NCBI GenBank assembly: GCA_014138725.1
Contig: JACJID010000003.1
Coordinates: forward strand, 62,001 to 126,000
Length of the DNA stretch: 64,000 nt
Source: Kutzneria viridogrisea
GTDB taxonomy: Bacteria; Actinomycetota; Actinomycetes; Mycobacteriales; Pseudonocardiaceae
Reading direction: 5' to 3'
Shown here: positions 20,053 to 54,908 of the stretch, one piece after another
Layout of the letters: each line of letters begins with the position of its first letter
Numbering within the stretch: position 1 is the stretch's first letter
Notes under the pieces: model-generated
What the model saw: the letters and a program-made list of their open reading frames with translations, nothing else
The model's database searches: none
Told to the model about the DNA's origin: nothing
Translations under genes and position numbers: made by a program

Positions 20053-21252
20053 TCAGGCTTCGGGCCGGTTCGCGGTGGGGATCGTGATGGGGGTGCTCGT
20101 CGGTGAGGTGCCGTTGTTGAGGAACAGCATCGCGATCGCGCGCACGAACTGGTCGAACAGGTAGAACCCGGCGGGCATGACGGGCAGCAGCCCCTCGCGG
20201 AACGCGATGTAGGCCGGCCATCCGGTGCGGATCAGGGCTGCCGCCGCGTAGTCACGTGGCAGTTCGAGCCAGTCGCCGATCTCGTTGCTGAGCACGTAGC
20301 GCACGAACTCGTTGAGGAATCCTCGGGTTACCCCCAGGTCGACCTGCGCGGTCAGCCCGAGCAACTCCTTGGCCAACTCCTTGCCCTCGGGCGTCGGGTT
20401 GAGGATCGGTGTGAGCACCTGCGCCGACTGCGCGTCCGCCTCGGCCCACGTCCTGGGGATGAACTCGTCCCGCACGCCGAGCAGGTGAATGGCGACCTGC
20501 CACATGTGCAGGAAGGCATCCTCGTCCGCAGCCGACATGGGGACGTGCCATTCGAGCAGCTTGCGGTGCACGAAGGTGCCCAGACTGTGGAAGGTGACCA
20601 GGATGTCACCGTTGCTGATCGGGATCTGCTCCTCGTTGGCCGCCCGCCAGTGCGGAGATCGCGGCAGCAGATGACGCACCGCCGCGTGCACCAGGCGCGT
20701 CTTGTTGGCTGTGACCACGAACTGCCCCGTGGGTTCGAAGGCGCTCACCTCGCTCAGGTCGTAGCCGAAGGTGAACGTCTTGGCCGCGCGGTCCTTCATG
20801 TTGGCGCCGCCCGCGGACCAGTAGACCGCCGTGGCCTCACGTGGGATCACCGTGCTCATGATGCCGCTGCCGAGGCCGTACAGCATGAACAGGTAGGTGT
20901 CCTTGCGCCGGTTGAAGTCGGCGGCGAGACGGAGCTTGGTGCGGTCGGCCCAGGAGGGCAACTGGTTGACCTGCTGTAGGTAGGCGGCGAGATCGGCCGG
21001 CAGTCCGCCCGGTAACGGGTCGCTGTTGTTCACCCACGACCGCATCGCGGAGTTGACCGCCGGAACCTGGCCGCTGTCGAGAAGCGCCGCCACCAGACGG
21101 TCCACCGCATCGTCCCAGACCCACCACGGGTCGGTGGCAGTGCTGGTGCCGGCCGCCGCTGACCGCGCCCAGGCCGGGACAGCGCCCGCCACGCTCGCGA
21201 GGCCCAGCGCGGCACCGAGGGACAGGACGCTCCTCCTGCTGAGACTGCTCAT
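20053..21252 (-). CDS. Tat-exported MpaB/Lcp-type oxygenase (rubber-oxygenase-like)
   Basis: 399 residues. A twin-arginine signal (SRRSVLSLGAALGLASVAG) is cut near AWA-RS. The body is DUF2236/MpaB-type, all helical, with TRLVHAAVRHLLPRSPHW at about 165-182 and FHSLGTFVHRKLLEWHVP at about 201-218. These carry His residues that fit the b-type heme ligands and active-site Lys/Thr/Arg area of latex clearing proteins. Lcp K30 has about the same length and is also secreted. Known Lcp enzymes cleave poly(cis-1,4-isoprene) to oligo-isoprenoid ketone/aldehydes. A TetR gene lies next to it, as for known lcp genes. Other MpaB substrates are possible. Confidence 0.75.
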   Translation of the reverse strand: MSSLSRRSVLSLGAALGLASVAGAVPAWARSAAAGTSTATDPWWVWDDAVDRLVAALLDSGQVPAVNSAMRSWVNNSDPLPGGLPADLAAYLQQVNQLPSWADRTKLRLAADFNRRKDTYLFMLYGLGSGIMSTVIPREATAVYWSAGGANMKDRAAKTFTFGYDLSEVSAFEPTGQFVVTANKTRLVHAAVRHLLPRSPHWRAANEEQIPISNGDILVTFHSLGTFVHRKLLEWHVPMSAADEDAFLHMWQVAIHLLGVRDEFIPRTWAEADAQSAQVLTPILNPTPEGKELAKELLGLTAQVDLGVTRGFLNEFVRYVLSNEIGDWLELPRDYAAAALIRTGWPAYIAFREGLLPVMPAGFYLFDQFVRAIAMLFLNNGTSPTSTPITIPTANRPEA

Positions 21253-29481: not shown

Positions 29482-30258
29482 TCAGGGCAGTGCACGGATC
29501 AGCACGAGTGAACCGTTCAGATGCGGCTGTCGACGCAGGTGGCCGTACCGGTCCTCCCACGCGCCCGACGCCAGGTCCGCGCGGAGTCGCTCCGTGTACT
29601 CCTCGGCCTGTTCCGGCGGGACGAAGCTCCAGGCCGAGCAGGACTGGCGGGCGGCCGGGTCGAGGAGGCGTTCGGGGCGGGCGTAGTACGCCTCGTTGAA
29701 GCCGTCGACGCAGTCGGCCGGGATGGGCACGGTGGTGACCTCGGTGTGACCGCCCAAGGTCGCGGTGATGTCGCGGATCGCTGGGTACCGGCGCGCCTCG
29801 GTGTCGAGCACCAGCGGGGCATAGTCGTACAGCCAGAACTCGCGGACCCGGTCAGGATCGCAGGTGAGCACGACGACCGGGCCACGCGCTACCCGACGCA
29901 TCTCCAGCAGCCCTGACTCCAGGTCGCTCCACTGGTGCACGCTGAACGTGGTCATCGCGGCGTCGAAGGCGTCGTCCTCGAACGGCAGGTGTTCGGCGAC
30001 CGCGTCGATCGCCACGGGGAGGTGTATCGGCCGTTGGGCGCGCATGGACGCCGACGGCTCCACAGGGGTCACGGTGAAGGCCGCCGACTCGTACGAGCCG
30101 GCCCCGGCGCCCACGTTGACCACCGTGCGCGCACCGGCCAGCGCCTGCTCGATGAGCGCGGCGATCCGCGGCTCCGGGCGCCGGTAGGCGGAGTACGACC
30201 CGCCGATCGTGCCGTAGTCCGCGTCACCCGCGCTGCCGTCCGCCGTACGCCGTGTCAT
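29482..30258 (-). CDS. Class I SAM-dependent methyltransferase
   Basis: 258 residues from ATG 30258, which overlaps the stop of the upstream MerR-peroxiredoxin gene as ATGA and has AAGGGA in front. YGTIGGSYSAYRRPEPRI is the usual lead-in, VVNVGAGAGSYE is motif I (with Val-Asn in place of Leu-Asp), and VTPVEPSASMRAQRP follows. FDAAMTTFSVHQWSDLESGL resembles the substrate-side region of type 11 enzymes. Translational coupling ties it to the redox-sensing fusion upstream. Substrate unknown. Confidence 0.82.
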   Translation of the reverse strand: MTRRTADGSAGDADYGTIGGSYSAYRRPEPRIAALIEQALAGARTVVNVGAGAGSYESAAFTVTPVEPSASMRAQRPIHLPVAIDAVAEHLPFEDDAFDAAMTTFSVHQWSDLESGLLEMRRVARGPVVVLTCDPDRVREFWLYDYAPLVLDTEARRYPAIRDITATLGGHTEVTTVPIPADCVDGFNEAYYARPERLLDPAARQSCSAWSFVPPEQAEEYTERLRADLASGAWEDRYGHLRRQPHLNGSLVLIRALP

Positions 30259-31175
30259 GGGGTTCCCTTCAGCCATGTCAGTACCTGCCCGGCATGTTCG
30301 CCGGGTGAGTCGATGGGATGGAACACGTGCTCGATCACGCCGTTCCGGACGATCAGAGTGATCCTCGCGTACAGCCGCGTCCCGCCGGCCTCGAACGTCG
30401 GCAGACCAAGCAGGGCCGCCAACTCCAGGCCGGGATCGGACAGCATCGAGAACGGCAGCCTCAGCCGCGTGACGACTTCGCGTTGGTAGGCGACGCTCTG
30501 GCTGGACAGGCCGTACACGGCGGTGGCGCCCGCGTCGATGACCTCGCGGTGGTGGTCCCGGAACCCACAGGCCTCGGCCGTGCAGCCGCGCGCACCCGGG
30601 ATGGTGTCCCAGCCTTCCGGCAGATCCACGTCCGGTCTGCCGGTCAGCGGGTACAGGTAGATCACCGACCGGCCGAAACCCAGCTCGGCCAGCCCCACTC
30701 GGGCTCCGGTCGTGGTGGTCAGCGCGACCGCCGGCATGTGCCGCCCCACCAGATCCTCGGCCGCGGCGTTGGGATGTCCGGTCGGCGCGCTCGACGCAGC
30801 ATCAGCTGGCTTCGCACAACTGCTGCGGTAGGCGGCATTGCGGAGACGCACGACCAGTCGATCACGGCGGGCCGTCAGATCCTCGATCCGGTGGGTCAAC
30901 TCCTCGATCGCCGTCCGGTACTCGGCCATCGAGGACGGACAGTCGTCCGCCAGCTCAGCCCCAGACTCCAGGCACTCCAGGAACGGCCGGGTCCGCTCGG
31001 CAGGAATCCCCAACTCGCGCAGGACCCGAAGCTCACACACCACCCGCACGTCCCGCTCGTCAAACGCCCGGTACCCGTTCGCCAGCCGCCGCGGTGCGAT
31101 CAACCCCAGCGCCTCGTAGCGCCGGACCGCCTTCGCGCTTACTCCCGCACGACGCGCCACCTCACCGATCCGCAC
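30255..31175 (-). CDS. MerR regulator fused to a PrxQ/BCP-type peroxiredoxin
   Basis: 306 residues in one frame. Residues 1-115 are a MerR domain (GEVARRAGVSAKAVRRYEAL, dimerisation helix to about 112). After a linker (116-140), residues 141-303 form a thioredoxin-fold peroxiredoxin. GCTAEACGFRDHH holds Cys198 and Cys203, the peroxidatic and resolving pair of PrxQ five residues apart, and VYGLSSQSVAYQREV with LPFSMLSDPGLELA follow as in the family. Further cysteines (47, 68, 79, 120) lie in the MerR part. GTG 31175 follows GGGGAGGGGG. The fusion could sense peroxide through the C-terminal cysteines. It is coupled to a methyltransferase. Confidence 0.88.
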   Translation of the reverse strand: MRIGEVARRAGVSAKAVRRYEALGLIAPRRLANGYRAFDERDVRVVCELRVLRELGIPAERTRPFLECLESGAELADDCPSSMAEYRTAIEELTHRIEDLTARRDRLVVRLRNAAYRSSCAKPADAASSAPTGHPNAAAEDLVGRHMPAVALTTTTGARVGLAELGFGRSVIYLYPLTGRPDVDLPEGWDTIPGARGCTAEACGFRDHHREVIDAGATAVYGLSSQSVAYQREVVTRLRLPFSMLSDPGLELAALLGLPTFEAGGTRLYARITLIVRNGVIEHVFHPIDSPGEHAGQVLTWLKGTP

Positions 31176-43638: not shown

Positions 43639-44073
43639 TCAGTCGGACTCGAGGATCTCGGCCAGCCAGAGGGTGTCCTCGAGGTAGCGTTCGTAGGGAA
43701 AGCCAGCCGCGACGAGCCCGGCGCGGAATTCGTCGTAGAGCGGTTTTCCGGCGGTGTGGAAGGCTTTCCGGCCGGCATCGGTGAGGCGGACCAGCCGCCG
43801 CCGTGCGTGTTCGGGGTCGATGGTGATCTGCACCAGGCCTTCGGCTTCGAGTGGCCGCAGCGCCCGACTGATCGCCGGGTCGGACACCGACAGCGCCTGC
43901 GCGAGCCGATGCTGCGTCACCGGCTCGACGTCCTCCAGCGTGCCCAGCAGTCGTATCTGGCTGTAGGTCAAGCCGTCGCGGTCATCGGTGCGCCGACGGG
44001 CCGCCTCACCCAGCAGCATGACCACACGGTGCAGCAGGTCTGCGAGTCCATCATCCACGACACCACCATACAT
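43639..44073 (-). CDS. MarR-family regulator
   Basis: 144 residues, complete. A helical N-terminus is followed by the winged helix (TQHRLAQALSVSDPAISRAL, then VQITIDPEHARRRLVRLTDA) and C-terminal dimerisation helix. ATG 44073. It diverges from two membrane-protein genes, and the palindrome GTTAATATTAAC in between is the probable operator. Confidence 0.88.
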   Translation of the reverse strand: MYGGVVDDGLADLLHRVVMLLGEAARRRTDDRDGLTYSQIRLLGTLEDVEPVTQHRLAQALSVSDPAISRALRPLEAEGLVQITIDPEHARRRLVRLTDAGRKAFHTAGKPLYDEFRAGLVAAGFPYERYLEDTLWLAEILESD

Positions 44074-44082
44074 GAGTCTTGA

Positions 44083-44100
44083 CTAGTTAATATTAACCAG
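44083..44100. promoter_or_regulatory. MarR operator
   Basis: CTAGTTAATATTAACCAG is an 18-bp palindrome with one mismatched pair and a perfect GTTAATATTAAC core at 44086-44097. It lies in the 41-base gap between divergent starts, so the repressor would cover both promoters. Confidence 0.8.
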
Positions 44101-44114
44101 ACAACAATGAGGCC

Positions 44115-44639
44115 ATGGACAACTTCTCCTACCTCGCCCAGTCCGCCTTCCCCCTTGTCTGGATCCTGGTGCCGGCCATCGGGGCGTTCGTGCGGGCCCG
44201 CCACGCCCGGTCACCCCAGGAGGCGCTGGAGACCTGGCAGCGCTGGTGGGCCATCGGGGCCCTCGGCTTCGGCAGCCTGTGGATGACGGTCGCGTTCCTC
44301 GCCCTCCCGGACGTCATGGCCACGGCGATCGGCTTCGACCGGACCCCCTTCATGTTCGAGATCGCCTTCGCCAACCTCGGGCTGGCCGTCATGGGCTTCC
44401 GTGCCGCCTCGGCATCCGCGCGCGAGCGCATCACCATCGGACTCGGCGCCGGGATGTTCCTCTGGGGAGCCGTGGTCGGCCACGTCTACCAGTGGTTCGC
44501 CAACGGTGACCACGCCCCCGGCAACACCGGTGGAGTCCTCGTCAACGACATCCTGATCCCGGCAGTCATGATCATGCTGGCCGTGCGGTCCCGGCGACTG
44601 CCGGCCACGCCCCAGCCGACCGTGGAAATCGCCGCCTGA
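44115..44639 (+). CDS. Four-helix membrane protein (DUF6790-like)
   Basis: 174 residues with four transmembrane helices: AFPLVWILVPAIGAFV, WAIGALGFGSLWMTVAFLA, IAFANLGLAVMGFRAAS, and GLGAGMFLWGAVVGHVYQWF, plus a hydrophobic C-terminal segment (NDILIPAVMIMLAV). The conserved GHVYQWFANGDHAPGN loop fits the DUF6790 type, by memory only. Function unknown. First gene of a two-gene unit under the divergent MarR. Confidence 0.75.
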   Translation: MDNFSYLAQSAFPLVWILVPAIGAFVRARHARSPQEALETWQRWWAIGALGFGSLWMTVAFLALPDVMATAIGFDRTPFMFEIAFANLGLAVMGFRAASASARERITIGLGAGMFLWGAVVGHVYQWFANGDHAPGNTGGVLVNDILIPAVMIMLAVRSRRLPATPQPTVEIAA

Positions 44640-44661
44640 CACCGCGGGAGCTGACCTCACC

Positions 44662-45309
44662 ATGGCTACCCATGCCTGCCACCAACCCGACGGCGAGGCC
44701 GGCCTGGCGCGAGCGGCCGCCGCCGAGCGGCTCACCGTGTTCGTCGACGCCGTGATCGCGATCGCACTCACCCTGCTCGCCCTGGAACTGCCCGTCCCCA
44801 CCGGCGACACCACCGACGCCATGCTGGGCTCGGCGCTGGCCCACGGCAAGGAGTACCTGGCCTTCGCGCTCAGCTTCGTGGTGATCTCCGCCCACTGGCA
44901 CGCCCACCACGAGATCTTCCGCTACGTCCACTCGCTGAGCGGCCGCCTGACCAGCCTCACCCTGCTCTGGCTGTTCATGCAGATCCTGATGCCGTTCGCG
45001 ACCCGGGTGCTCACCGCCGAGGGCGCCTTCCCACCCCGGTTCAGCCTGTACGCGCTCGTGCAGGTCCTGGCGTCCGCGTCGTTCGCGCTCATCATCCGGG
45101 AGATCCGACGCGAGCACCTGTACCGCACGGACGTCCCGCCCCGGGTGTTCGCCCAGAGCCTGATGCGCAGCATCTGCCTTGCCGCCGTCTTCGGGGTGTC
45201 CGTTCCCGTCTCGTTCGTGACCACGAGCACCGGCGCGTACCTGTGCTGGCTCGCGGCGCCGATCGTGCTCGCCGTCGCCCGCGGTATCCAGGGCCGTGCC
45301 GTCCAGTGA
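44662..45309 (+). CDS. TMEM175-family membrane protein
   Basis: 215 residues, six hydrophobic segments. The first helix RLTVFVDAVIAIALTLLALE matches the TMEM175 potassium-channel signature RxxxFSDxxxAIxxTLL, except that the pore-lining Ser of FSD is Val. AFALSFVVISAHWHAHHEIF (helix 3) is also typical of the bacterial DUF1211 members. A potassium-conducting role is known for several bacterial homologues; the Ser-to-Val change leaves it uncertain here. It follows the previous gene after 22 bases. Confidence 0.85.
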   Translation: MATHACHQPDGEAGLARAAAAERLTVFVDAVIAIALTLLALELPVPTGDTTDAMLGSALAHGKEYLAFALSFVVISAHWHAHHEIFRYVHSLSGRLTSLTLLWLFMQILMPFATRVLTAEGAFPPRFSLYALVQVLASASFALIIREIRREHLYRTDVPPRVFAQSLMRSICLAAVFGVSVPVSFVTTSTGAYLCWLAAPIVLAVARGIQGRAVQ

Positions 45310-45503
45310 CCGCACATGCCGCTGAGTGGAAGTTCTGAGCGATGCTCGCTCATGCCGGCGACCGGTAGTCCAGCGTGGCCCCAGTAAGCGGGCTGGTCGT
45401 TGGTCCTGGATGCGGGTGAGTGTTCTCAGTGTGCCCCGCGTGCTATGGCGACCTTGCCTGACAGTTCCAGATCCATCCATTTTCCCGATGAACGAGCAGG
45501 ACT
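45310..45503. other. Spacer with short dispersed repeat units
   Basis: CCGCACATGCCGCTGAG (about 45316) and CGCTCATGCCGGCGACCGG (about 45348) resemble the opening of the longer repeats at 51530 and 63620 (CATGCCGCxGACCGGAAGTT). No gene is visible. Confidence 0.45.
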
Positions 45504-46427
45504 CTAGGCGGAATGCGCCCCGGTCATCAGCGCGGCGAGGTCCTCGGGGGCCAGGAACGACGGCGGGGGCGGAGGTCCCCAGCTGTACAAGCCTTTCGTC
45601 CCTTCCCAGACGCCGGGTTTCCAGAGTTGGTCGTCCACGACGCAGTCCAGGTCAGAGTAGTACTCGGAGAAGTTGCCCGCCGGGTCCTTGAGGTACCAGA
45701 AGAAGTTCGATCCGACGTGGTGGCGTCCCAGTCCCCACACGTGGCGGTCGGGGTCGGCGGCGAGCATCGCGGTGGCCCCGCGGCCGACCTCGTCGACGTC
45801 CTCGAGCTGCCATGAGGAGTGGTGCAGGAACTGCACTGGGGCTTGCTGCACCAGGACGTTGTGGTGGTCGGTCGAGCAGCGCAGGAATGCCGCCAGGCCC
45901 TTCACGGTATCGCTGACCTTGAAACCGATCCCTTCGGTGAAGAAACGCTGGCTCGCTTGCTGGTCGGTGGAGCCCAGAACGACGTGCCCCAGCTTGCGAG
46001 GACGCACGGCCTGCGAGCGCAACACCGCATCGGCACGGGCGTCCGCGCGCTCGATCCGTCCGGGACCGTTGTAGTGCGGTGCCGGGGCGGCGCTCTGCCC
46101 CAGCCGGGGCGCGAGCGTCACCTCGACACGGGTGCCGGTACCCGCGTCGACGGCGGAAACCGTGGTGCTGGTGCGTTCCACCGTCACGTCGAGGCGCTGG
46201 AGGCCGGCGGCGACGCGGTCGAGGTCGTCCGGGTCGTCCGCGCCGACGCCCAGCCGCAGCAGGCGGCGGTGGTCGGAGCGGGCGATCCGCAGTTGTTCGC
46301 CGCCGTCGACGGTGCTGAAGCTGTGCCCGTCGGGCAACGGTCGCAGGCCGAATTCCTCGTAGTAGGCGGCTGTTTGCGCGACGTTGGGCACGCCGAGTGT
46401 GATCGAGGTGAGGCGGTGCAACGCCAT
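45504..46427 (-). CDS. Type I extradiol (VOC-fold) ring-cleavage dioxygenase
   Basis: 307 residues with two VOC domains. The N-terminal domain (LGVPNVAQTAAYYEEFGLRP) is non-catalytic. The C-terminal one carries the Fe/Mn ligands His in KLGHVVLGS, His in FLHHSSWQLED and Glu in NFSEYYSD. This is the layout of 2,3-dihydroxybiphenyl/catechol 2,3-dioxygenases, which cut a catechol ring next to the diol. ATG 46427 follows the FAH stop after one base and has AGGAG upstream, so it is the last gene of the operon. The substrate is not readable, but ring cleavage and the FAH hydrolase together suggest a meta-cleavage pathway. Confidence 0.87.
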   Translation of the reverse strand: MALHRLTSITLGVPNVAQTAAYYEEFGLRPLPDGHSFSTVDGGEQLRIARSDHRRLLRLGVGADDPDDLDRVAAGLQRLDVTVERTSTTVSAVDAGTGTRVEVTLAPRLGQSAAPAPHYNGPGRIERADARADAVLRSQAVRPRKLGHVVLGSTDQQASQRFFTEGIGFKVSDTVKGLAAFLRCSTDHHNVLVQQAPVQFLHHSSWQLEDVDEVGRGATAMLAADPDRHVWGLGRHHVGSNFFWYLKDPAGNFSEYYSDLDCVVDDQLWKPGVWEGTKGLYSWGPPPPPSFLAPEDLAALMTGAHSA

Positions 46428-46428
46428 G

Positions 46429-47304
46429 TCACATCTCCTGGGATCCGGGCGCGGGTACGAAGTGGTGACACAGCTCGCCGATGCCATCGATGGTGCTGAC
46501 GAGTCGGTCACCGGGACGCAGGTACCGCGGGGGTGTGCGGGCCGCGCCAATGCCGGCGGGGGTGCCGGTGAAGATCACGTCGCCAGGCTCGAGTGGTAGC
46601 ACTGCCGAGACAGTCGCGATCAGGGCGGGCACTGAGAAGATCATGTCGGCCGTGGTGCCGTGCTGGACCAGTTCGCCGTTGACCGAACAGCTCAGCTTCA
46701 ACGCGTCGGGGTCGAGGCCGCCCGCACGCAGTTCGTCGACGGTGACCAACCAGGGCCCCATCGGCGCGAACCCGGGAAAGGACTTGCCCAGGCTGAACTG
46801 TGGCGCCGGCCCGGCGGTCTGCACCGTCCGCTCGGAGATGTCCTGCCCCACGGTCACCCCGGCCACGTGGTCCCAGGCCTGTGCGCTGTCCACGTCGCGG
46901 GCCGTGCGGCCGATGACCACAACCAGCTCCACTTCCCAGTCCACGGTGTGGCCGGGGAGGGTGATCGGGCCACTCGGGCCGGTGATCGCACCGCGGAACT
47001 TGGTGAACACCGGTGGGAACTGCGGCAGCTCGAATCCTGATTCCGCGGCGTGGTCGCGGTAGTTCAGGCCGATCGCGAACAGCTGGTCGGGTCGTGGCAC
47101 CGGAGACCGCAGCGTGTCGAACTCGACCGGGTGCACCGGTAGTGTCGCGTGGTTCAGACTCCTCACCCACTCGGAGAACTCGTCCCACCGGGCGAAGACC
47201 TCCTGCGGGTCGGACCCGAACCTGCCGTGCGAGGCGGATTCGACGTCCACCGCCCCTCCACGAGCGGCCAGGACGAGTCTGCCGTCGAGATTTCCAATGC
47301 GCAT
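46429..47304 (-). CDS. Fumarylacetoacetate-hydrolase-family protein
   Basis: 291 residues. LFAIGLNYRDHAAESGFELP is the family opening; the metal-binding Glu and Asp residues fit in VDWEVELVVVIG and TVGQDISERTVQ, and GDVIFTGTPAGIG is the C-terminal signature. Members hydrolyse beta-diketone products or act as hydratases/decarboxylases (HpcE/MhpD-like) after meta-cleavage. ATG 47304 has GGAGG. One base separates it from the dioxygenase gene, so the two are expressed together. Confidence 0.9.
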   Translation of the reverse strand: MRIGNLDGRLVLAARGGAVDVESASHGRFGSDPQEVFARWDEFSEWVRSLNHATLPVHPVEFDTLRSPVPRPDQLFAIGLNYRDHAAESGFELPQFPPVFTKFRGAITGPSGPITLPGHTVDWEVELVVVIGRTARDVDSAQAWDHVAGVTVGQDISERTVQTAGPAPQFSLGKSFPGFAPMGPWLVTVDELRAGGLDPDALKLSCSVNGELVQHGTTADMIFSVPALIATVSAVLPLEPGDVIFTGTPAGIGAARTPPRYLRPGDRLVSTIDGIGELCHHFVPAPGSQEM

Positions 47305-47374
47305 TGGCCCTCCTGCCGCTGGCAACGCTGTTGCCAGTAAATGTTGGTGTGCCTGGAGAATCAGGTGGAGCGGA

Positions 47375-47890
47375 CTATTCGACCGTTCCCTCGATGTGCG
47401 CCTTCAGCAGTTCCAGTCCGGGCTGGATGCGTGCCGGGTCTTCGATCGGGTGCGGGCCAGCCGGCTCGGTGTCCGGAACCAGTCGCTCGAACAGCCGGCA
47501 GAACAGGGTCGTTCCGTCGCCGAGGTCGAATGTGGTGAAGGTGGCGATCGCGTGCATCGCCGGTGCCGGGACACCGTTGTCGAGCACGTCCCGGCCGACC
47601 ACCGTCCACAGCTTGCCGGGGACCCGTGCCACCACGGTGTAGAGCTTCGGCTTCTCGTTCAGCTCCGGCACGATGTTCTCGAGCAGCACGTCGCCGAGTT
47701 CGGCGGGAACGCCTTCGTTGCCCCGCCGCACCTCGGTACCCGACGCCATCGGCAGCCATTTCGGCAGGTTCGCCCAGGTGGTCACCCAGTCGTACACGAC
47801 CTGCGCCGGGCGCTCGACGACGATGCGGTTCTCGATGAACCTGATGTTCAGGTTGTACGGGATCGGGGACACGTACAGGTCGGACGTCAC
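47375..47890 (-). CDS. SRPBCC-family protein (cyclase/START-like)
   Basis: 171 residues, no signal peptide. NRIVVERPAQVVYDWVTTWA with LPKWLP opens the helix-grip fold, and VVARVPGKLWTVVGRD and ATFTTFDLGDGTTLFCRLFE are central strands. Such proteins bind hydrophobic ligands or act as polyketide-type cyclases and hydratases. Position between the LDI-like and FAH genes suggests it handles a pathway intermediate. GTG 47890, with AGAGG about 7 bases upstream. Confidence 0.8.
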   Translation of the reverse strand: MTSDLYVSPIPYNLNIRFIENRIVVERPAQVVYDWVTTWANLPKWLPMASGTEVRRGNEGVPAELGDVLLENIVPELNEKPKLYTVVARVPGKLWTVVGRDVLDNGVPAPAMHAIATFTTFDLGDGTTLFCRLFERLVPDTEPAGPHPIEDPARIQPGLELLKAHIEGTVE

Positions 47891-48061
47891 CGTCTTACCT
47901 CTTTCTTCTCGGTTGTGTTGTTCTTTTCCGCCAGAGCGCGCGAGGACGAATCCGGGCAGGAGCGCGGTAGTAGCGCCAGGCGAGCAGGTGGATCTGGCTC
48001 ACCAAGTCGAGCGGCCACGAGATCTCGGTGGCACTGTGCTGATCACGGTGCCGGCGTCGTT
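47891..48061. other. 171-base gap inside the operon
   Basis: One minus-strand frame through the gap reads DLVSQIHLLAWRYYRAPARI and ends with a stop near 47895. It has no good start and may be a remnant, an extension lost from the LDI-like gene, or chance. Confidence 0.4.
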
Positions 48062-49708
48062 TCAGTAAATGGCGGTGCCGTGAAGGCTCAGCGCGAGATC
48101 CGTCGCTGCGCGCAGCGTGCAGTTGAGGACAAGCGCGTTTCCGACGTAATGTGCGCCGACCTTCGACGTGTCGAGGACATCCAGCGTGTCCCGGCCGTCG
48201 GAGGTGACGACCGGACTGCCGTCCAGGAAAAGCGTCCAGTTCCGCCCGGACCGAACGTTGGCGATCTCCATCTGGATGGCGGCGGAGTCCTGCTGAACGG
48301 GGCGGAGGGTGAGCGCGAGCAGCGACTCCGTCGGGTCGTACCAGGCACGGGCCACATCCGCCCGGCCGTCGAGGCGGGCCAGGTTGGGCTGCCGGAAGTG
48401 TTCCGGTCCCCACGGCTCGTTGTACATCTTCCACAGCCCGTCGGTGACATTCAGCCGCGCGTAACCCAACATGGCGTTACCGGTGAGCCGGTCCATGTAG
48501 ACCAGATTCCCGTCCGCGTCATACGAAGTGTCGTTACGCGGGTAGTACAGACCGCCGTCCCGCCAGGTGGGAGTCATGTACCGGTCAGCGTGGGCGAGCA
48601 TACCGCGCAGGTTCTCGGTGTCGCCGAGTTCGGCCATGCAGGCGGCCGTGTACCCGAAGGACGGACTGCTCCACTGGTAGTCGGTGCCGCCGTCGGGCAT
48701 GAGCGGCGCACGGTTCTCCCGCCGTGCCCGCCGCAGCTCCGCGGTCGCCGGTGGCGGCATCAGGGTCACCAGTCCGTCGGCGCTGCGCCGAATCATGTCG
48801 CGGATCTGTTCGGGGTAGAGCTTGTGAACGAGTTCCCGGTTCCAGGCGTTCATGTTCAGTGCGGTCCACTGGGAGCCCGCACCTCCCGCCAGTTGCAGCG
48901 GGCGGTCCTGCTTGACAAGCCAGATGCGCCAGTATTCCCCGTCCTCATCGAGCATGCCTCGCTTGTGCCAGGCATCGGTGAAGGCCCTGGTGACCTCTTC
49001 GGCGACGGACGTTCCCCTGCGCAGGTCCAGGAATCGGAAACCGAGTATCGCGAACTGGTTGCAGACGATGAACAGGCAGTTGGGTTCGCAGACGACGCCG
49101 TACCAGCCGGTCTCGGCCATCTGCCAGTAGAGGTTGTCCGCGATCGAGCTGTACGAGTACTCGTAGACCTCCGGGCCGAGGCCCTGGAACATGGGCTCCC
49201 ACCGCAGCGAGATCGCACCGGGCTCGTCGTACCGGTCGCTGTCGAACAGCATGGAGTGCATGCCCAGCATCGCGAACAGGCGGCCGCTGTACATGATGTT
49301 CTCTTTGACGATGGGGTCTCGCCAGCCTTCGCGCAGTTCGACGATGTCGGGGTCGGTCACCCTGCTGCCCTTGCTGGTTCCGTTCCAGTAGGCCCAGACC
49401 TCCGGGAGTTGCATCTTCCGGATGGCCTGTTCAAAGGTGGGACGGAAGGCGCCTGGCGCGGCCGGAAGGTGGTGGAAGTGGGCGAACCCGAGACAGTAGG
49501 ACATCTGGGCGAACTGGTAACGATAGGAGTCCGACGTCTCCTGGCCCCACTGCGCCGAGCCCATGCCATCCCAGTCATTGTCCTCCTGCGAGACCAGGTT
49601 GTGGATGTGCCGGAGGTGGCCGATCTGCTCGTGGTCCAGCATCGGATAACGGGAGAGGTCAGGCGCGGCGCGCATGGTCCCGCTGGCCATGGTGTTGTCC
49701 TTGCTCAT
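48062..49708 (-). CDS. Linalool dehydratase/isomerase-like (LDI) protein
   Basis: 548 residues, predicted (alpha/alpha)6-barrel. Castellaniella LDI features can be matched by eye: Met147 and His151 four residues apart in FAMLGMHSMLF, and Cys207 and Cys216 nine residues apart in VVCEPNCLFIVCNQF, the same spacing as the catalytic cysteines of that enzyme (from memory). Aromatic residues lead in (DNDWDGMGSAQ, YRYQFAQMSYCLGFAHFHH). There is no signal peptide, unlike the periplasmic Castellaniella enzyme, and it is about 150 residues longer. Its ATG overlaps the SCO gene stop (ATGA), so both are translated together. Dehydration or isomerisation of an alkenol is inferred; the substrate is unknown. 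Confidence 0.8.
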   Translation of the reverse strand: MSKDNTMASGTMRAAPDLSRYPMLDHEQIGHLRHIHNLVSQEDNDWDGMGSAQWGQETSDSYRYQFAQMSYCLGFAHFHHLPAAPGAFRPTFEQAIRKMQLPEVWAYWNGTSKGSRVTDPDIVELREGWRDPIVKENIMYSGRLFAMLGMHSMLFDSDRYDEPGAISLRWEPMFQGLGPEVYEYSYSSIADNLYWQMAETGWYGVVCEPNCLFIVCNQFAILGFRFLDLRRGTSVAEEVTRAFTDAWHKRGMLDEDGEYWRIWLVKQDRPLQLAGGAGSQWTALNMNAWNRELVHKLYPEQIRDMIRRSADGLVTLMPPPATAELRRARRENRAPLMPDGGTDYQWSSPSFGYTAACMAELGDTENLRGMLAHADRYMTPTWRDGGLYYPRNDTSYDADGNLVYMDRLTGNAMLGYARLNVTDGLWKMYNEPWGPEHFRQPNLARLDGRADVARAWYDPTESLLALTLRPVQQDSAAIQMEIANVRSGRNWTLFLDGSPVVTSDGRDTLDVLDTSKVGAHYVGNALVLNCTLRAATDLALSLHGTAIY

Positions 49709-50301
49709 GCCGGCACCGTGTTCACGATGCTCTTGTGCCGGCCCAACGATCCGGCCAGCCGCCGGGCCATCTCGGCGGCCGTCACGGCGTCGGTGAAATG
49801 GGTGATGTAGGCGCCGTCCTGGCCCATCAAGTAGGTGAAGGCGCTGTGCGGAACCTGGTAGCCGTCAGAATCGTCGGGATCCACGGCGCGCCCCGCGAAG
49901 ACGTGGTACGCGGCCTGTGCCGCGGCGACCTGCTCGGCGGAACCGGTGAGCCCGACGAAGCGGGGATGCGCACGTTGTAGGAAAGCGCGCAACACCGCAG
50001 GGGTGTCCCGCTCGGGATCGACGGAGACGTACAGCGGCTGCACGTCGTTCGCCTTCTCGCCGAGCAGATCAAGTGCTTCGTCCATCCGGGACAGTGCCGC
50101 CGGGCAGATCGTCCGGCAGTGGGTGAAGCCGAAGAAAATCAGCAACCGCCTGCCCAGGTACGAATTCTCGGTGACCTGTTGTCCGAAGTGGTCGATCAGC
50201 TCGAAGTGCCCGCCGACGGTGACCGTGGGGCGGTGAACCACGACGGGCAGGGTTTCCTCGAGGTCACCGCAGCAGCCTGAACTCTTCGTGGAATCACTCA
50301 C
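49705..50301 (-). CDS. SCO1/SenC-type thioredoxin-fold protein without membrane anchor
   Basis: 198 residues. FFGFTHCRTICPAALSRMDE gives the CxxxC copper/redox motif and GYQVPHSAFTYLM the conserved His of SCO proteins. Usual SCO proteins have an N-terminal membrane anchor or signal; this one starts SDSTKSSGCCGDLEETLPVV, with an extra Cys pair, and looks cytoplasmic. GTG 50301 follows AAAGGAG. First gene of the operon and translationally coupled to the LDI-like gene. It may load copper or, more likely here, keep cysteines of the LDI-like enzyme reduced (inference). Confidence 0.85.
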   Translation of the reverse strand: MSDSTKSSGCCGDLEETLPVVVHRPTVTVGGHFELIDHFGQQVTENSYLGRRLLIFFGFTHCRTICPAALSRMDEALDLLGEKANDVQPLYVSVDPERDTPAVLRAFLQRAHPRFVGLTGSAEQVAAAQAAYHVFAGRAVDPDDSDGYQVPHSAFTYLMGQDGAYITHFTDAVTAAEMARRLAGSLGRHKSIVNTVPA

Positions 50302-50381
50302 TGGCGCTCACTCCTTTCGGGGTTGGCACCAGGCTAGAAACCCGCACCTATACCTGTCCAATACTCTTTTCGCTTTGAGCC

Positions 50382-50396
50382 ATGCCCGCCGAGCAT
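50382..50396. promoter_or_regulatory. LysR box upstream of the SCO/LDI operon
   Basis: ATGC-7-GCAT (ATGCCCGCCGAGCAT) is a T-N11-A palindrome, the LysR consensus. It lies 80 bases before the first operon gene and 60 bases after the LysR stop, in the only spacer of the unit. Confidence 0.6.
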
Positions 50397-50455
50397 AGTT
50401 CAGGGTGAAAGGAGTTGTGCTGGTGCGGGCGAGTTCGAAACGTGGGCGTCGTCTG

Positions 50456-51415
50456 CTACTTCTGGCCGTACGTTTGCGCTGCCTCCAGGCCACTGCGGAT
50501 GTCGACTGCCGCCTGACGCAGGTACTCGAGCATCTGACGCAAGGCCGGTGTGAGCGGGGATTCCGCCGGGAGGGTGAGTCCGACGGTCTCCGCGATCCCC
50601 AGATCGAGCGGCAGCGGGACCAGGTCCCGCTCCGCTTCGGCCACCAGCTGCGGCAACAGGACCAGAACGTCGGTTTCCAGGGCGAGCGATCGAACGGCGA
50701 GGTAGGAGTTGACTTCGATGCGGTTGCGCGGCAGTGGAAGGCCGTGCCGCAGGAGGAGTTGCTGCACCTCGCGCCGCAACGGAGTGCCGACCATCGGTAC
50801 GGACCACAGGTGGTCGGCGAGATCGGGAATTCGCAGCCTCGACATCGAATGCGCGGGATGCGCAACGCGTGCCACCAGGCGAAGTGGTTCCTGGTAAAGC
50901 GGAACCTGGGTCATTCGCGATGAGTCGGCCATTTCCAGTGTGCCGACCACCAGATCGAGTTCGCCGGTGAGCAGGTCCTGCCGAAGCCCGTCGAGAGTGC
51001 CGTGCCGGACGACCACCGTGATGTCCGGGTGCGCCTCCTTCAGCCGCGCGACGGCGCGGGGCAGCAGGACGTTGGCCCCGGCGAGGTGGGTGCCGATGGT
51101 GACCTGGCCGGTCTGCCCGGCGGCGAGTTCCCGCATGTGTTGGTCGGTGTGCCGCAACTCGGCCAGCACCGCACGGGCGTGATCGACGAAGGCGTGCCCG
51201 AACACCGTGGGCGTCATCCCCCGAGGGCCGCGCTCGAACAGTTCGACGCCCAGGATCGACTCCAACTCCCGCAGGCAGCGGGTCAGCACCGGCTGGGTGA
51301 TCTTGAGGTGATCAGCCGCCGCGATCAGGCTGCCGTGCTCCGCGATCGCCGCCGTGTAGCGCAGGTGCCGCAACTTGAGGTTGCCGTCGAGGAGATTGCC
51401 GTGGGACACGAACAC
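50456..51415 (-). CDS. LysR-type regulator of the LDI operon
   Basis: 319 residues. The N-terminal HTH (LRHLRYTAAIAEHGSLIAAA, KITQPVLTRCLRELESIL, FERGPRGMTPTVFG) is typical LysR, followed by a periplasmic-binding-type co-inducer domain. It sits immediately upstream of the operon on the same strand, so it can be autoregulatory and activate the SCO-LDI-SRPBCC-FAH-dioxygenase genes when the pathway substrate binds. GTG 51415 or 51409. Confidence 0.9.
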   Translation of the reverse strand: MFVSHGNLLDGNLKLRHLRYTAAIAEHGSLIAAADHLKITQPVLTRCLRELESILGVELFERGPRGMTPTVFGHAFVDHARAVLAELRHTDQHMRELAAGQTGQVTIGTHLAGANVLLPRAVARLKEAHPDITVVVRHGTLDGLRQDLLTGELDLVVGTLEMADSSRMTQVPLYQEPLRLVARVAHPAHSMSRLRIPDLADHLWSVPMVGTPLRREVQQLLLRHGLPLPRNRIEVNSYLAVRSLALETDVLVLLPQLVAEAERDLVPLPLDLGIAETVGLTLPAESPLTPALRQMLEYLRQAAVDIRSGLEAAQTYGQK

Positions 51416-51856
51416 AGCATGACAAGGCGTCGGGCATAGCTGGTGCGGCGGGTGGAGACCTGGAGGTCTTCCCGGCCACTTCTGGCTCGTGCCGCCAACG
51501 AGCGTTGGTAGCTGTCGAACACCCGCTCATGCCGCAGACCGGAAGTTGACCGCGGCAGCGCTCAGCGCTCACAAAATATGACCGCATCCGAGAGAATCCG
51601 GCGCGTTCACTCTCGGCCGACGTGTCACGCCGCCGGTCAGAGCTGGTCCGCACCGACATGATCACGGACCTACAGCACCTCGCGACCGGCCCTGCAATGG
51701 CCGCTGCGATGCTCGCTCATGCCGATGAGCGGATGAAAACGGGCTGCGAACGAACGGCCTCCGCGCGTAGCTTCAACACCCTCAACCGCTCGGATGCGAG
51801 GGGCACCTTGGGGCGCGGACGAACTCGGTCCCTTCCTTGTTGGAGAAGATGATCAC
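51416..51856. other. Spacer containing a 134-bp dispersed repeat
   Basis: It holds a 134-bp repeat (separate entry) and the stem CGCTCAT-GCCG-ATGAGCG near 51714-51731. No full gene; a frame through the repeat goes on to a stop near 51850. Confidence 0.5.
51530..51663 (+). repeat. 134-bp dispersed repeat, plus copy
   Basis: Matches the reverse complement of 63486-63620 with a dozen or so mismatches and one base gap. It begins TGCCGCAGACCGGAAGTTGA and ends CACCGACATGATC. Both copies keep a frame encoding ENPARSLSADVSRR-type and SELVRTDMI peptides. Confidence 0.8.
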
Positions 51857-52441
51857 GTGTCCCACGACCACCTGTCAGAGTTGTGGCGGCAGCAGTGGCC
51901 CGGGTGCCCTCCGTTGGCCGGCACCTTGAAGCACGTCTACCGCGATCGATGGGTGCGTTTCCACAGCCTGCCCGCATCCAAGCGCTACCCCGAGCACGAG
52001 GCCGAGTACGACATCGTGCTCCACCGCTACAACTCGGTCCTGGACGAACTGTTCCACGCCCAGGAGGTCCGGATCGTCGCCACCGACTGGTCGCACAATC
52101 CCGAGCCACCGGCCCGGTCTGCGCGGCACGCGCTCTGGCACCCCGACGCCCGCCACTGGACGTCCATCTGTACCAGCGAACGCGAAACAGACCCGGACTT
52201 CATCACCTACGACCACCTCTATGTCAGCCGCACTCGCTGGCAATCCGGCTTGATCGACGACCTGCTCCGCGCCGTGGCTGACGATGCCGCCCACGGAGTG
52301 ATGATCACCAGCCCGTCCTTCGACCGGATCCACCATCCCTACGACGGCGGCGCTGACGTGCTGCTACCGACGACCGACGAGCGCGACGCCCTGAAGCAAC
52401 GTCATACCCACTGGCTCTCCGCCCATCCCGGTAGCCTGTGA
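51857..52441 (+). CDS. DUF3885-like protein
   Basis: 194 residues from GTG 51857 (GGAGAAG upstream). The N-terminal LSELWRQQWPGCPPLAGTLK and VRFHSLPASKRYPEHEAEYD followed by RYNSVLDELF fit the DUF3885 type, by eye. Later WTSICTSERETDPDFITYDH is strand-rich. No signal peptide or membrane segment. Function unknown. It stands alone between the repeat and the AraC relic. Confidence 0.65.
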   Translation: MSHDHLSELWRQQWPGCPPLAGTLKHVYRDRWVRFHSLPASKRYPEHEAEYDIVLHRYNSVLDELFHAQEVRIVATDWSHNPEPPARSARHALWHPDARHWTSICTSERETDPDFITYDHLYVSRTRWQSGLIDDLLRAVADDAAHGVMITSPSFDRIHHPYDGGADVLLPTTDERDALKQRHTHWLSAHPGSL

Positions 52442-52487
52442 GCATCGACATCCGCACATGCCGCCGACCCGTCGTGGTCACAGTGTG

Positions 52488-52583
52488 GGCTGGGCCCAAC
52501 TCGCCACCGACCTGGGCTACCGCGACCAGGCACACCTCGTCCGCGACTTCACCACAACCATTGGGCAACCACCCGCCCACTAA
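52488..52583 (+). pseudogene. AraC C-terminal fragment cut by an IS
   Basis: WAQLATDLGYRDQAHLVRDF with TTTIGQPPA reads as the second HTH of an AraC protein. Its stop (TAA 52581-52583) is provided by the terminal repeat of the IS that follows, so the insertion cut or trimmed this gene. The 5' part is gone. Confidence 0.7.
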
Positions 52584-53482
52584 AGGTTGTCCCGTATTGA
52601 TCAAGAGTGTTGGCGGGCATGGGTGACAGCGGCCTTGTCTGCTGTCGGGGGCCGCTCAGGCCGTCATGGACAGATTGCGCATCTGCGCGATGCCTCGGGT
52701 GGCGTGCCAGACACCGTCGCGTGTGCGGCGGCAGTTGCGCAGGATGTTCCAGGACTTCATGTGTGCCAGGGCGTGCTCTACCCGTGCGCGGACGCTCTTG
52801 TGGACGGTGTTGAGGTCTTCTTTCCATTGCGGCAGCGGTGGTTGTCCCTTGCGGGGCTGGCGGTAGGGCATGATCACCCCTGGGTTGCCCTGGTAGCCGC
52901 CGTCCGCCAGCACGTTCGCGCCCCGGCACTGCTCATCGACGCCGGAGTCGGTGTAGGCGCGGCAGTCGTTGCGGTTGCCCGGCGTGGGTTCGCCGACCGC
53001 GACCACCAGGCGGGTATTGGCGTCGATGACGACCTGCATGGTCACCGAATAGCGGTAGTTCTTCGACGAGGCGGACATGCCGCGGTCGTGGGTGGGCACC
53101 AGCGTGCCGTCCACGATCAGCACGGTGTCCGGGCCGTGCTCGCGGGTCACCGGCGCGAGCGCCAGCAGCGGCGCCAGGTGATCCACCACGCGGTTCGCGG
53201 CCGACTTCGAGATCCCGAACAACAGCGCGACCTGCCGAAACGTTAGATTCGTCCGGTAGTACACCGCCACCAGCAACACCCGATCCGCCAGCGACAAGCC
53301 CCACCGCCGGCCGGTGCCGGTCTGCTCACCACCCCGACGGGCCACGATCCGCACGAGCTTGCGAAACACCCGCACCGACACGCCCGTGAACACCGGCACC
53401 CACTCCGGCCGGTCCGCACTGATCACCTGCTCCACATCAAGATCATCGATCTTGCCGAGACGGCGTTACGGGACAACCTTTA
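52581..53482 (-). mobile_element. IS5-type (DDE_Tnp_4) insertion sequence
   Basis: The 902-bp element has exact 16-bp inverted ends TAAAGGTTGTCCCGTA (52581-52596) and TACGGGACAACCTTTA (53467-53482). TA at the extreme ends may be the target site. It has a single transposase gene on the minus strand and is inserted at the end of an AraC relic. Confidence 0.85.
52656..53435 (-). CDS. IS5-type transposase
   Basis: 259 residues. SLADRVLLVAVYYRTNLTFR and LLFGISKSAANRVVDHLAPL form the HTH_Tnp_4 domain. The DDE residues are in LIVDGTLVPTHD, VLADGGYQGN and VRARVEHALAHMK. This is the short, one-frame transposase group often annotated IS5/IS1031-like. It differs from the transposase at 41235. Confidence 0.9.
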   Translation of the reverse strand: MEQVISADRPEWVPVFTGVSVRVFRKLVRIVARRGGEQTGTGRRWGLSLADRVLLVAVYYRTNLTFRQVALLFGISKSAANRVVDHLAPLLALAPVTREHGPDTVLIVDGTLVPTHDRGMSASSKNYRYSVTMQVVIDANTRLVVAVGEPTPGNRNDCRAYTDSGVDEQCRGANVLADGGYQGNPGVIMPYRQPRKGQPPLPQWKEDLNTVHKSVRARVEHALAHMKSWNILRNCRRTRDGVWHATRGIAQMRNLSMTA

Positions 53483-53597
53483 CGCGGCGGGACACCCCAG
53501 CCCAATGGAGGCATGCCGCCGCCAGCGCACCCGGGTCGCGGTTCACGCCGTCTCATTTCGGCCGGGGCCGAACCGTTGCCCCGCTACCGTCGACCGC

Positions 53598-54908
53598 GTG
53601 CTGACCGACCCGACCTACACCGTCCCGGCCGTGCCGCCCGCCGACACCGGCGTGGCCTGGTTGCGCGCCCATGTCGCCCGGTTCAGCGAGGGCGCCGACC
53701 ACCGACGCCGTCGCGCGCTCGCGGAGGACTTCCTCGCCGCGGTGGACGCCGAATCTCTGCGCCGGCCGGGGAATCCGGTGGCGAACCTCGCCGAGGCACC
53801 TGGCCTGCCGCGCGCGGTCGCGGCCGAGGTCGCCGTGGTCGCCAGGTCCTACCAGCCACACACACCGGTGACCGAGGAGGCCGACGCGGCGGTGGCGCGC
53901 CTGGTCGCGGCCTGCGGCGGCGGGTGGGACGAGGCCACGGCCAACCGGATCGGCCTGCTGGTGCAGGCCTGTGACGCCACCATCGCGTTGATCGTCGGCC
54001 GCCAGCCGCCGGTGCCGGTCACCCGCCGGGTCGCGCCGAGCGGCGAGACCGTCGAGGTCGACCTGGCCGACACGCCGTTCGGGGCCGGCCGACACGCCTG
54101 CCCCGGCCGGGAGCACGCCGAGGCGCTGGCCGACGGCGCGCTGGCCTTCCACCGCCTGCACTGCGGCGAGCAGCCGTTGCTGCTGCCCAACGCGTGGGAT
54201 TTCGCCTCGGCCGCCGCCCTGGCCGGCGCCGGCTTCCCCGCTGTCGGCACGACTAGCCTCGGGGTCGCCGCCGCACACGGCATCCCGGACGCCGCCGGGC
54301 TCACGCTGGCCGAGACCCTCGCGCTGGCGCGGCGGCTGGTCCGGCTGCCCGTGCCGGTCACGGTGGACATCGAGGCGGGCTTCGGCTGCGACCCGCACGA
54401 GCTCGCGGCCCAACTGTGGGAGCTGGGCGTGGCCGGGGTGACCATCGAGGACGGTCGGGGAGCCGGACTCGCCGATCCGGCCGAGCAGGCGAGGCTGGTG
54501 CGCGGCGTGAAGGAGGGCGGCCCCGGCCTGTTCGTCAACGCCCGGGTGGACACCCACTGGCTGGCGGTTGGCCAGGACTCGACCATCGACCGCGCGCTGC
54601 GGTACGTGGACGCGGGCGCGGACGGGGTCTTCGTGCCCGGGCTGCGAGACGAGCGCGGGATCGCCGCCGTCGTCGACGCGGTGCCGGCGCCGGTGAACGT
54701 GCTGGCGCAGTTGGACATCCACACGCTGGCGGGCCTCGGAGTGCGGCGCGTCAGCACCGGCTCGCTGCTGTTCCGCGCGGCGCTCGGGTCCGCCGTCACG
54801 GCCGCGCGCGCCGTCCGGGACGGCGAGCCGGTCGGACACCCGCTGGGCTATCAGGAGGTCCAGGACCTCATCGTGACGGCCACGCCCCGCCGCAGCCGAC
54901 CCCACTGA
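53598..54908 (+). CDS. Fusion of P450-like fragment and PEP-mutase/isocitrate-lyase domain
   Basis: 436 residues. Residues 1-170 contain DTPFGAGRHACPGREHA, the heme-thiolate loop FxxGxxxCxG of cytochromes P450, but only about 170 of the usual 400 residues and no I-helix motif. Residues 180-436 are a PEP-mutase/isocitrate-lyase barrel: LLLPNAWDFASAAALAGAGF, VDIEAGFG (metal Asp/Glu), GVTIEDG and VNARVDTHWLA. In relatives the short P450-like protein and the mutase-type enzyme can be separate neighbours; here one frame joins them. GTG 53598 is chosen because upstream codons lie in low-complexity sequence. Known activities of the barrel: C-C or P-C bond lyase/mutase. Substrate unknown. Confidence 0.8.
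   Translation: MLTDPTYTVPAVPPADTGVAWLRAHVARFSEGADHRRRRALAEDFLAAVDAESLRRPGNPVANLAEAPGLPRAVAAEVAVVARSYQPHTPVTEEADAAVARLVAACGGGWDEATANRIGLLVQACDATIALIVGRQPPVPVTRRVAPSGETVEVDLADTPFGAGRHACPGREHAEALADGALAFHRLHCGEQPLLLPNAWDFASAAALAGAGFPAVGTTSLGVAAAHGIPDAAGLTLAETLALARRLVRLPVPVTVDIEAGFGCDPHELAAQLWELGVAGVTIEDGRGAGLADPAEQARLVRGVKEGGPGLFVNARVDTHWLAVGQDSTIDRALRYVDAGADGVFVPGLRDERGIAAVVDAVPAPVNVLAQLDIHTLAGLGVRRVSTGSLLFRAALGSAVTAARAVRDGEPVGHPLGYQEVQDLIVTATPRRSRPH

Follow-up and report, generated by a model that had tools for sequence, protein, structure and literature searches.

We analyzed a stretch of 64,000 nucleotides from Kutzneria viridogrisea (contig JACJID010000003.1, positions 62,001 to 126,000), hereafter called the window, and in it six open reading frames (ORFs) on the minus strand at 45504-51415. 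In 5′ to 3′ order on that strand, they encode a LysR-type regulator, a SCO1/SenC-family protein (SCO), a protein of the linalool dehydratase/isomerase family (LDI), an SRPBCC protein, an FAH-family protein, and a type I extradiol dioxygenase (VOC). SCO and LDI form a widespread two-gene module found in Actinomycetota and Pseudomonadota, and we are nearly certain that their products are functional partners. The recurrence of the pair suggests that LDI needs a private helper keeping its active-site cysteines working. Our preferred reading, held with moderate confidence, is that the cytosolic SCO is a dedicated thiol-redox (or copper) chaperone of this LDI-type cysteine enzyme and that the pair feeds a catechol-cleavage cassette. 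A preliminary description of the operon had listed the SCO gene and made no use of it; of all the genes, SCO has the closest tie to LDI.

Recurrent pairing of SCO with LDI

We scanned 84,980 species and obtained 138 pattern hits and 95 relatives, from which the best 80 loci, some of them near-duplicates, were kept. The search did not use SCO, but one of the two peptide patterns included the third cysteine described below, so that counts of that cysteine are biased. An SCO match lay within about 10 kb at 75 of the 80 LDI loci; the one at L097 was a conventional SCO. Where SCO was close to LDI and on its strand, it was upstream at 9 loci and downstream at 64; the domains were a median of 56 bases apart. 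An LDI homolog of about 40% identity from the same genus also has SCO directly after it.

The pair was also found on plasmids. Nine plasmid records carried a full-length LDI. SCO adjoins LDI in the Allorhizobium and Agrobacterium regions that we viewed and lies about 10 kb from it on a Variovorax paradoxus plasmid. When the plasmid collection was ranked by SCO match, the top eight records all came from these nine. The one missing from them is the 29-kb LDI plasmid of Rhodococcus erythropolis BG43, on which no SCO was found. Among the next-ranked SCO plasmid records, four were viewed; in the three annotated ones, SCO adjoins copper or cytochrome genes.

The whole-genome set comprised 36 genomes from 40 chosen loci of the 80, two loci sharing one genome. 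All 36 contained SCO, which adjoined one or more LDIs in 31. Four of the others (G503, G514, G518, G521) had a clade-type SCO on the same contig as LDI at a distance of about 8-19 kb, and G521 had an adjacent conventional SCO as well; in G513, SCO was on another contig and LDI at a contig edge. Of the 36 genomes, 16 had a single SCO match; it adjoined LDI in 15 of these and was 18.5 kb away in G518. Several genomes had more than one LDI, and some of the LDIs had no SCO of their own (G506, G522).

Intact LDI of the clade was found in 9 of 80 Amycolatopsis genomes. We tested SCO in 23 of the 80, including 14 without intact LDI that were picked, non-randomly, for an SRPBCC cassette or an LDI fragment. 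Each of the nine genomes with intact LDI had one strong SCO (>140 bits), adjacent in six and unlinked in three (G823, G866, G870), where an SCO of the same type was megabases from LDI. None of the 14 had a strong SCO; G856 had a 42-bit piece and three others had matches <25 bits. This co-occurrence gave a Fisher p value of 1.2e-6, not corrected for kinship. Among 60 genomes drawn from the window's family, clade-level LDI occurred only in G000 and G006, both with SCO. SCO matches >100 bits were seen in four further genomes, one of which (G047) has a clade-type SCO without LDI, directly preceded by a C-terminal remnant of LDI. The adjacency across loci, the single SCO in a genome, and the co-occurrence when unlinked lead us to reject SCO as a bystander.

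Two further counts, of neighboring genes at 83 LDI loci and of cysteines in 99 LDI rows, were made after dropping near-duplicates (L022, L053, L080, L190, L187), loci with only part of an LDI (L180-L184), and those with no LDI match (L032, L033); the 83-locus count additionally omits L188, L189, L191 and L192. A zinc alcohol dehydrogenase of benzyl-alcohol type was present at 27 of the 83 loci (0 of 11 for distant LDIs), an aldehyde dehydrogenase at 21 (1 of 11), and an AMP (adenosine monophosphate) ligase at 25 (2 of 11). These neighbors would fit an alcohol-forming isomerase in those species. Five SCO-LDI loci from Bradyrhizobium, Variovorax and Xenophilus (L036, L037, L020, L059, L075) have related thiamine pyrophosphate enzymes and branched-chain-type ABC transporters; for the enzyme of L020, the nearest PDB match was benzaldehyde lyase.

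A third cysteine in the LDI clade

The LDI clade has the motif CEPNCxFxxCN, with a third active-site cysteine not found in LinD, the linalool dehydratase/isomerase of Castellaniella defragrans, or in other relatives. In 74 of the 99 LDI rows, the third cysteine was accompanied by a clade SCO within 2 kb. Eight rows had the cysteine only, 17 had neither, and none had the SCO only. Within 2 kb, no clade SCO was found beside sphingomonad paralogs that have F, A, R or V in place of the third cysteine, or at the 11 loci of distant LDI relatives. The LDIs from Amycolatopsis and G006, which were found without the cysteine pattern, agree with this link.

The LDI protein

The LDI gene (48062..49708, minus strand) encodes 548 amino acids and matched PF18566 (Ldi) with 403.7 bits (cut-off 26.1), the single such match in its genome. 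In an even draw of 396 genomes from the phylum, only nine had any PF18566 match, and a comparable score was seen only in the window's own genome. The LDI-like sequence matches in the PDB were LinD chains of C. defragrans only, followed by two catechol dioxygenases with E values of 0.36-0.43. An AlphaFold model made with 67 aligned relatives had a predicted local distance difference test score (pLDDT) of 92.6 and a predicted template modeling score (pTM) of 0.93. With this model, the first 27 Foldseek rows were all LinD. Structural alignment with C. defragrans LinD gave Z 36.6 and a root-mean-square deviation of 2.6 over 337 residues, with about 20% identity across the match; the first non-LinD structure had Z 19.9. 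The preliminary description had staked its assignment in advance on an (α/α)6 barrel at 48062-49708, and the barrel is present in the model. The Pfam score and the fold match support the LDI-like identity and rule out a doubtful annotation.

C207 and C216 align with the catalytic cysteine pair of LinD, and C211 is extra. The resulting motif, C207-EPN-C211-LFIV-C216, lies at 49061..49090 (minus strand). Among the 67 aligned relatives, these three were the only constant or nearly constant cysteines. R143 is at the place of LinD H129, where most clade members have Y and some have H. The cap cysteine of LinD (in KMKCKRVW) aligns with a non-cysteine, and no export signal was seen by eye in the N-terminal sequence. 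Because the cap cysteine, H129 and the signal are all not kept, we reject the view that the window's LDI is LinD itself. The LinD matches stop near residue 440; past them is a C-terminal β-strand region (48065..48388, minus strand), as judged from the secondary structure of the model. The R. erythropolis BG43 plasmid without SCO carries a third-cysteine LDI (L019) with an export-like, twin-arginine-like N-terminus.

The SCO protein

The SCO gene (49705..50301, minus strand) matched PF02630 (SCO1-SenC) with 159.7 bits (cut-off 22.8), the single match in its 10.2-Mb genome. Its product has the CxxxC cysteines (C62, C66) and the copper-ligand histidine (H152). A weak AhpC-TSA match (E 0.00027) was below the cut-off. 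The cysteine motif reads CRTICP in the window and mostly CxxVCPR in the LDI-paired clade. CxxxC was present in 79 of 79 LDI-paired SCOs, none in the CPDxC form, and one regular expression for the histidine motif matched 73 of them.

A hydrophobic N-terminal stretch was found in none of the 79 LDI-paired SCOs, the window's included, versus 16 of 20 conventional SCOs from the same order, when both sets were read from whichever of the last four ATG/GTG starts (within 110 residues) scored best; with the nearest start alone the counts were 0 of 79 and 1 of 20, so that the sets were not told apart. In a tree of 72 SCO sequences, 43 of them paired, a branch with 100/99 support sets off 25 conventional SCOs. 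By sequence, the LDI-paired SCOs are a separate clade predicted to lack the usual signal or anchor.

Organization of the operon and its promoter region

The six genes have the places and strand given in the preliminary description, as do the 4-base overlap (ATGA) of SCO and LDI and the 1-base spacing of FAH and VOC. Its tight coupling holds for these two junctions but not for the others, with gaps of 171 bases between LDI and SRPBCC and 70 bases between SRPBCC and FAH. No NCBIfam equivalog was above its cut-off for any of the six proteins.

The LysR gene (50456..51415, minus strand; start codon uncertain) matched PF00126 and PF03466, the helix-turn-helix and substrate domains of LysR proteins. 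Its nearest NCBIfam model was PcaQ, far below the cut-off, and a relative is in the same place in Amycolatopsis. The LysR-SCO gap of the window was aligned with those of five closely related Amycolatopsis, and the following footprint rests mainly on this comparison of the window with the five. A putative LysR box, 5′-CTAT-N11-ATGG (50380..50398, minus strand), reads 5′-CTAT-N11-ATAG in the five Amycolatopsis sequences (consensus 5′-CTAT-N11-ATRG). A putative -35 hexamer, 5′-TTGGAC (50356..50361, minus strand), is identical in all six, and a putative -10 hexamer, 5′-TAGCCT (50331..50336, minus strand), is 5′-TAGCNT in the six, with a spacing of 18-19. The conservation of this box and of promoter-like hexamers 5′ of SCO makes the LysR control proposed earlier probable, and the six genes are probably one LysR-controlled operon.

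The ring-cleavage cassette and its front ends

The VOC gene (45504..46427, minus strand) matched PF00903 (Glyoxalase) with 42.3 bits. Its probable metal ligands H148, H203 (of H202-H203) and E255 align with the 2-His-1-Glu set of 1han, and 3b59 was used as a second alignment reference; the extradiol dioxygenase assignment thus stands. Compared with the named equivalogs HpaD, catechol 2,3-dioxygenase, BphC and HsaC, it was far below every cut-off. The FAH gene (46429..47304, minus strand) encodes a hydrolase or isomerase that matched PF01557 (FAA_hydrolase) with 216.6 bits (cut-off 23.9); the best PDB sequence match was 6v77, a putative HpcE. The SRPBCC gene (47375..47890, minus strand) matched PF10604 (Polyketide_cyc2) with 30.2 bits (cut-off 27.4), which is weak support for the name. 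Its product is 85% identical to two Amycolatopsis relatives, and its structure model had a pLDDT of 39.1.

The preliminary description expected the five genes downstream of LysR to travel together. Close FAH, VOC, SRPBCC and LysR relatives were beside LDI at only 3 of the 83 loci (the window, A. nivea and A. dendrobii); the Amycolatopsis genome G882 has the same set in addition to these. What survives of the expectation is that LysR-SCO-LDI-FAH-VOC-SRPBCC is intact in three Amycolatopsis genomes, with SRPBCC last there versus after LDI in the window. The SRPBCC gene (83-91% identity) was found in 16 of the 80 Amycolatopsis genomes, once with an internal stop, and a 17th match was weak. In 10 of these 16, FAH-VOC-SRPBCC occurs without SCO-LDI. 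The 83-locus survey and these cassettes without LDI rule out the five genes as one conserved unit.

The front ends in the 16 genomes were of the LysR-SCO-LDI type in six and of the GntR type in 10. Three of the six were intact, two had SCO and LDI fragments with LysR, FAH, VOC and SRPBCC kept, and one had lost SCO, LDI, FAH and VOC. The joint decay of SCO and LDI is weak evidence for coupling, since a single deletion can take both neighbors. Five of the six LysR-type loci adjoin a tannase-like gene. An amidohydrolase precedes FAH-VOC-SRPBCC at five of the 10 GntR loci (L250, L253, L255, L256, L263); all copies matched that of L256 at E 1e-93 or better, and that of L255 is split over two frames. 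VOC relatives stronger than E 1e-100 were present in 37 of the 80 genomes. Among the plasmid records viewed, three had FAH-VOC near a flavin adenine dinucleotide (FAD) monooxygenase, one had it among other genes, and another had VOC without FAH. The cassette has GntR or LysR front ends and FAH-VOC occurs elsewhere; the core of ring cleavage is therefore a generic one, for which SCO-LDI serves as one interchangeable front end among others. The operon is two joined modules, SCO-LDI and FAH-VOC-SRPBCC, rather than one old unit.

Possible mechanism and alternative explanations

We think it rather likely that LDI acts upstream of ring cleavage in the window's operon. By homology with LinD, the C207/C216 pair would remove a hydroxyl group, or make it migrate, by acid-base chemistry. 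The CxxxC and histidine of SCO would serve to keep the LDI cysteines reduced or to restore them, with C211 as a possible resolving cysteine, and might let chemistry that depends on reductant in the two studied relatives run in an aerobic cytoplasm. The LDI product would be, or become, a catechol-type compound whose ring is opened by VOC, and the FAH protein would hydrolyze or isomerize the ring-opening product. The SRPBCC protein might bind or cyclize an intermediate, which is a guess, and LysR might sense the substrate through the conserved box. Excerpts of the published work describe LinD as oxygen-sensitive and in need of a mild reductant, with C170/C179 reduced and C48/C101 in a disulfide in that paper's numbering (PMC6600392), and linalool isomerase as inactive without reductant (PMC4791888). 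In an aerobic cytoplasm, a thioredoxin-fold partner of its own would be well suited to such an enzyme. Beyond this operon, it seems reasonably probable that the whole LDI clade, in Actinomycetota and Pseudomonadota, has a dedicated cytosolic SCO that acts as a thiol-redox maturase or a copper donor.

Several points weigh against this reading. The third cysteine changes only once on the LDI tree, so that its link with SCO counts as a single event, and a test of independent pairs on that tree found one pair only, too few to weigh for or against the link; moreover, the third cysteine was itself in one of the two scan patterns. Eight third-cysteine LDIs (L019, L063, L083, L074, L059, L020, L075, L097) have no clade SCO within 2 kb. 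For all of these except L019, a clade SCO is further off in the record or genome; in L020, L075, L059 and L097 it is 8-11 kb off and was hence counted outside 2 kb. With H129 replaced by arginine and the cap cysteine lost, the reaction of the window's LDI may differ from that of LinD. A Pfam scan found no catechol-making hydroxylase among the six genes of the operon. Finally, a reducing cytoplasm may not require a private reductase.

We lean only slightly to a thiol-redox partnership as opposed to a copper one. In the main rival explanation, SCO is a metallochaperone that loads copper into the CxxxC site of the LDI clade, making a cytosolic copper enzyme. Known SCO proteins handle copper for the CxxxC sites of cytochrome oxidase, the paired SCOs keep both cysteines throughout and the histidine motif in most cases, and it is the extra cysteine that creates a CxxxC in the LDI clade. 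We regard it as unlikely all the same. The three annotated plasmid SCO-LDI regions, to which this search was confined, list no copper gene, whereas three conventional SCO regions do have PCu(A)C, cytochrome c or CcdA. Such a cytoplasmic route of copper transfer would be unusual, and LinD chemistry is not known to require copper. The thioredoxin fold of SCO and its weak AhpC-TSA similarity could instead indicate a small peroxidase or general thiol protectant of the pathway, not specific to the LDI cysteines. However, LDI stays the partner while other neighbors vary, and SCO persists with LDI when the two are unlinked, which makes such a role improbable.

Two further explanations concern the gene set rather than the chemistry. 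The preliminary description favored one dedicated pathway, in which the five genes act on a terpenoid or aromatic side chain and then open a ring. The intact set in three Amycolatopsis genomes and the conserved promoter region are in its favor, but the cassettes without SCO-LDI in 10 of 16 genomes and the absence of close FAH, VOC and SRPBCC relatives at 80 of the 83 LDI loci speak against it, and no terpenoid gene was recognized among the 30 window ORFs, a subset, that were scanned with Pfam. We consider it doubtful. That SCO and LDI are neighbors by descent only, without a joint function, could be argued from the one ancestral event to which the third cysteine and the SCO link trace. The pairing across two phyla, the two gene orders, and the genomes in which the genes are unlinked leave this explanation with hardly any probability.

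Significance of the pairing

Both the LDI and the SCO families are already known; the new part is their pairing, which we did not find in print. In the open-license literature, no publication naming both linalool dehydratase and SCO was found. SCO proteins are envelope helpers of cytochrome oxidase. If our reading is true, SCO has a new class of clients outside respiration, and a soluble clade linked with an enzyme of catabolism would allow clean tests. The production of alkenes from alcohols makes LinD-type enzymes attractive, yet they are reductant-dependent and averse to oxygen, so that a natural helper for their cysteines would be directly useful. The swap in Amycolatopsis, between SCO-LDI and, under GntR, an amidohydrolase in some genomes, narrows the search for a shared intermediate.

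Neighboring genes in the window

A gene for a TMEM175-like potassium channel (44662-45309, plus strand) lies close behind the downstream end of the operon, on the opposite strand. Upstream of LysR is a DDE transposase gene (52656-53435, minus strand; PF01609, PF13359), and at 53505-54908 (plus strand) a 467-amino acid ORF has a phosphoenolpyruvate mutase family domain at residues 215-437, with no assignment for its first 200 residues. Elsewhere in the window, an ORF at 30255-31175 (minus strand) combines a MerR regulator domain with an AhpC/TSA-redoxin domain, possibly a redox-sensing fusion, and another at 20053-21252 (minus strand) encodes a protein of the MpaB/rubber oxygenase (Lcp) catalytic family.

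Comparison with known systems

The alcohol dehydrogenase (27 of 83 loci) and aldehyde dehydrogenase (21 of 83) beside an LDI-type enzyme resemble the geo/Atu route, which, as an excerpt of PMC4847356 describes it, leads from linalool through geraniol and geranial to geranic acid. In the window, the ten ORFs scanned at 43639-54908 included no geraniol or geranial dehydrogenase gene.

Actinobacterial meta-cleavage cassettes with an FAD monooxygenase also have adjacent FAH and VOC genes, with VOC identities of 68-70% in three records viewed. Those cassettes have GntR and the FAD monooxygenase where the window has LysR, SCO-LDI and SRPBCC.

The linalool isomerase of Thauera linaloolentis is, according to an excerpt of PMC4791888, related to LDI, has a cytoplasmic domain, and needs a reductant. 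The same source gives it four N-terminal membrane helices and a gene >150 bp from its neighbors, in which it differs from the window's LDI. LinD/Ldi of C. defragrans (PDB 5g1u, 5hlr, 5i3t) has the same (α/α)6 barrel and catalytic cysteine pair. Compared with LinD, the window's LDI is longer, with a C-terminal β region, the extra C211, R143 at the place of H129, and an SCO partner; the cap-disulfide cysteine (C48-C101) is not kept, and no export signal was seen on inspection.

PF02630, CxxxC and the histidine are common to the window's SCO and the SCO1/SenC/PrrC proteins, which are copper and thiol chaperones for cytochrome oxidase. In contrast to these chaperones, the window's SCO has no signal or anchor, reads CRTICP instead of CPDVCP, belongs to a separate clade, and has LDI as its neighbor.

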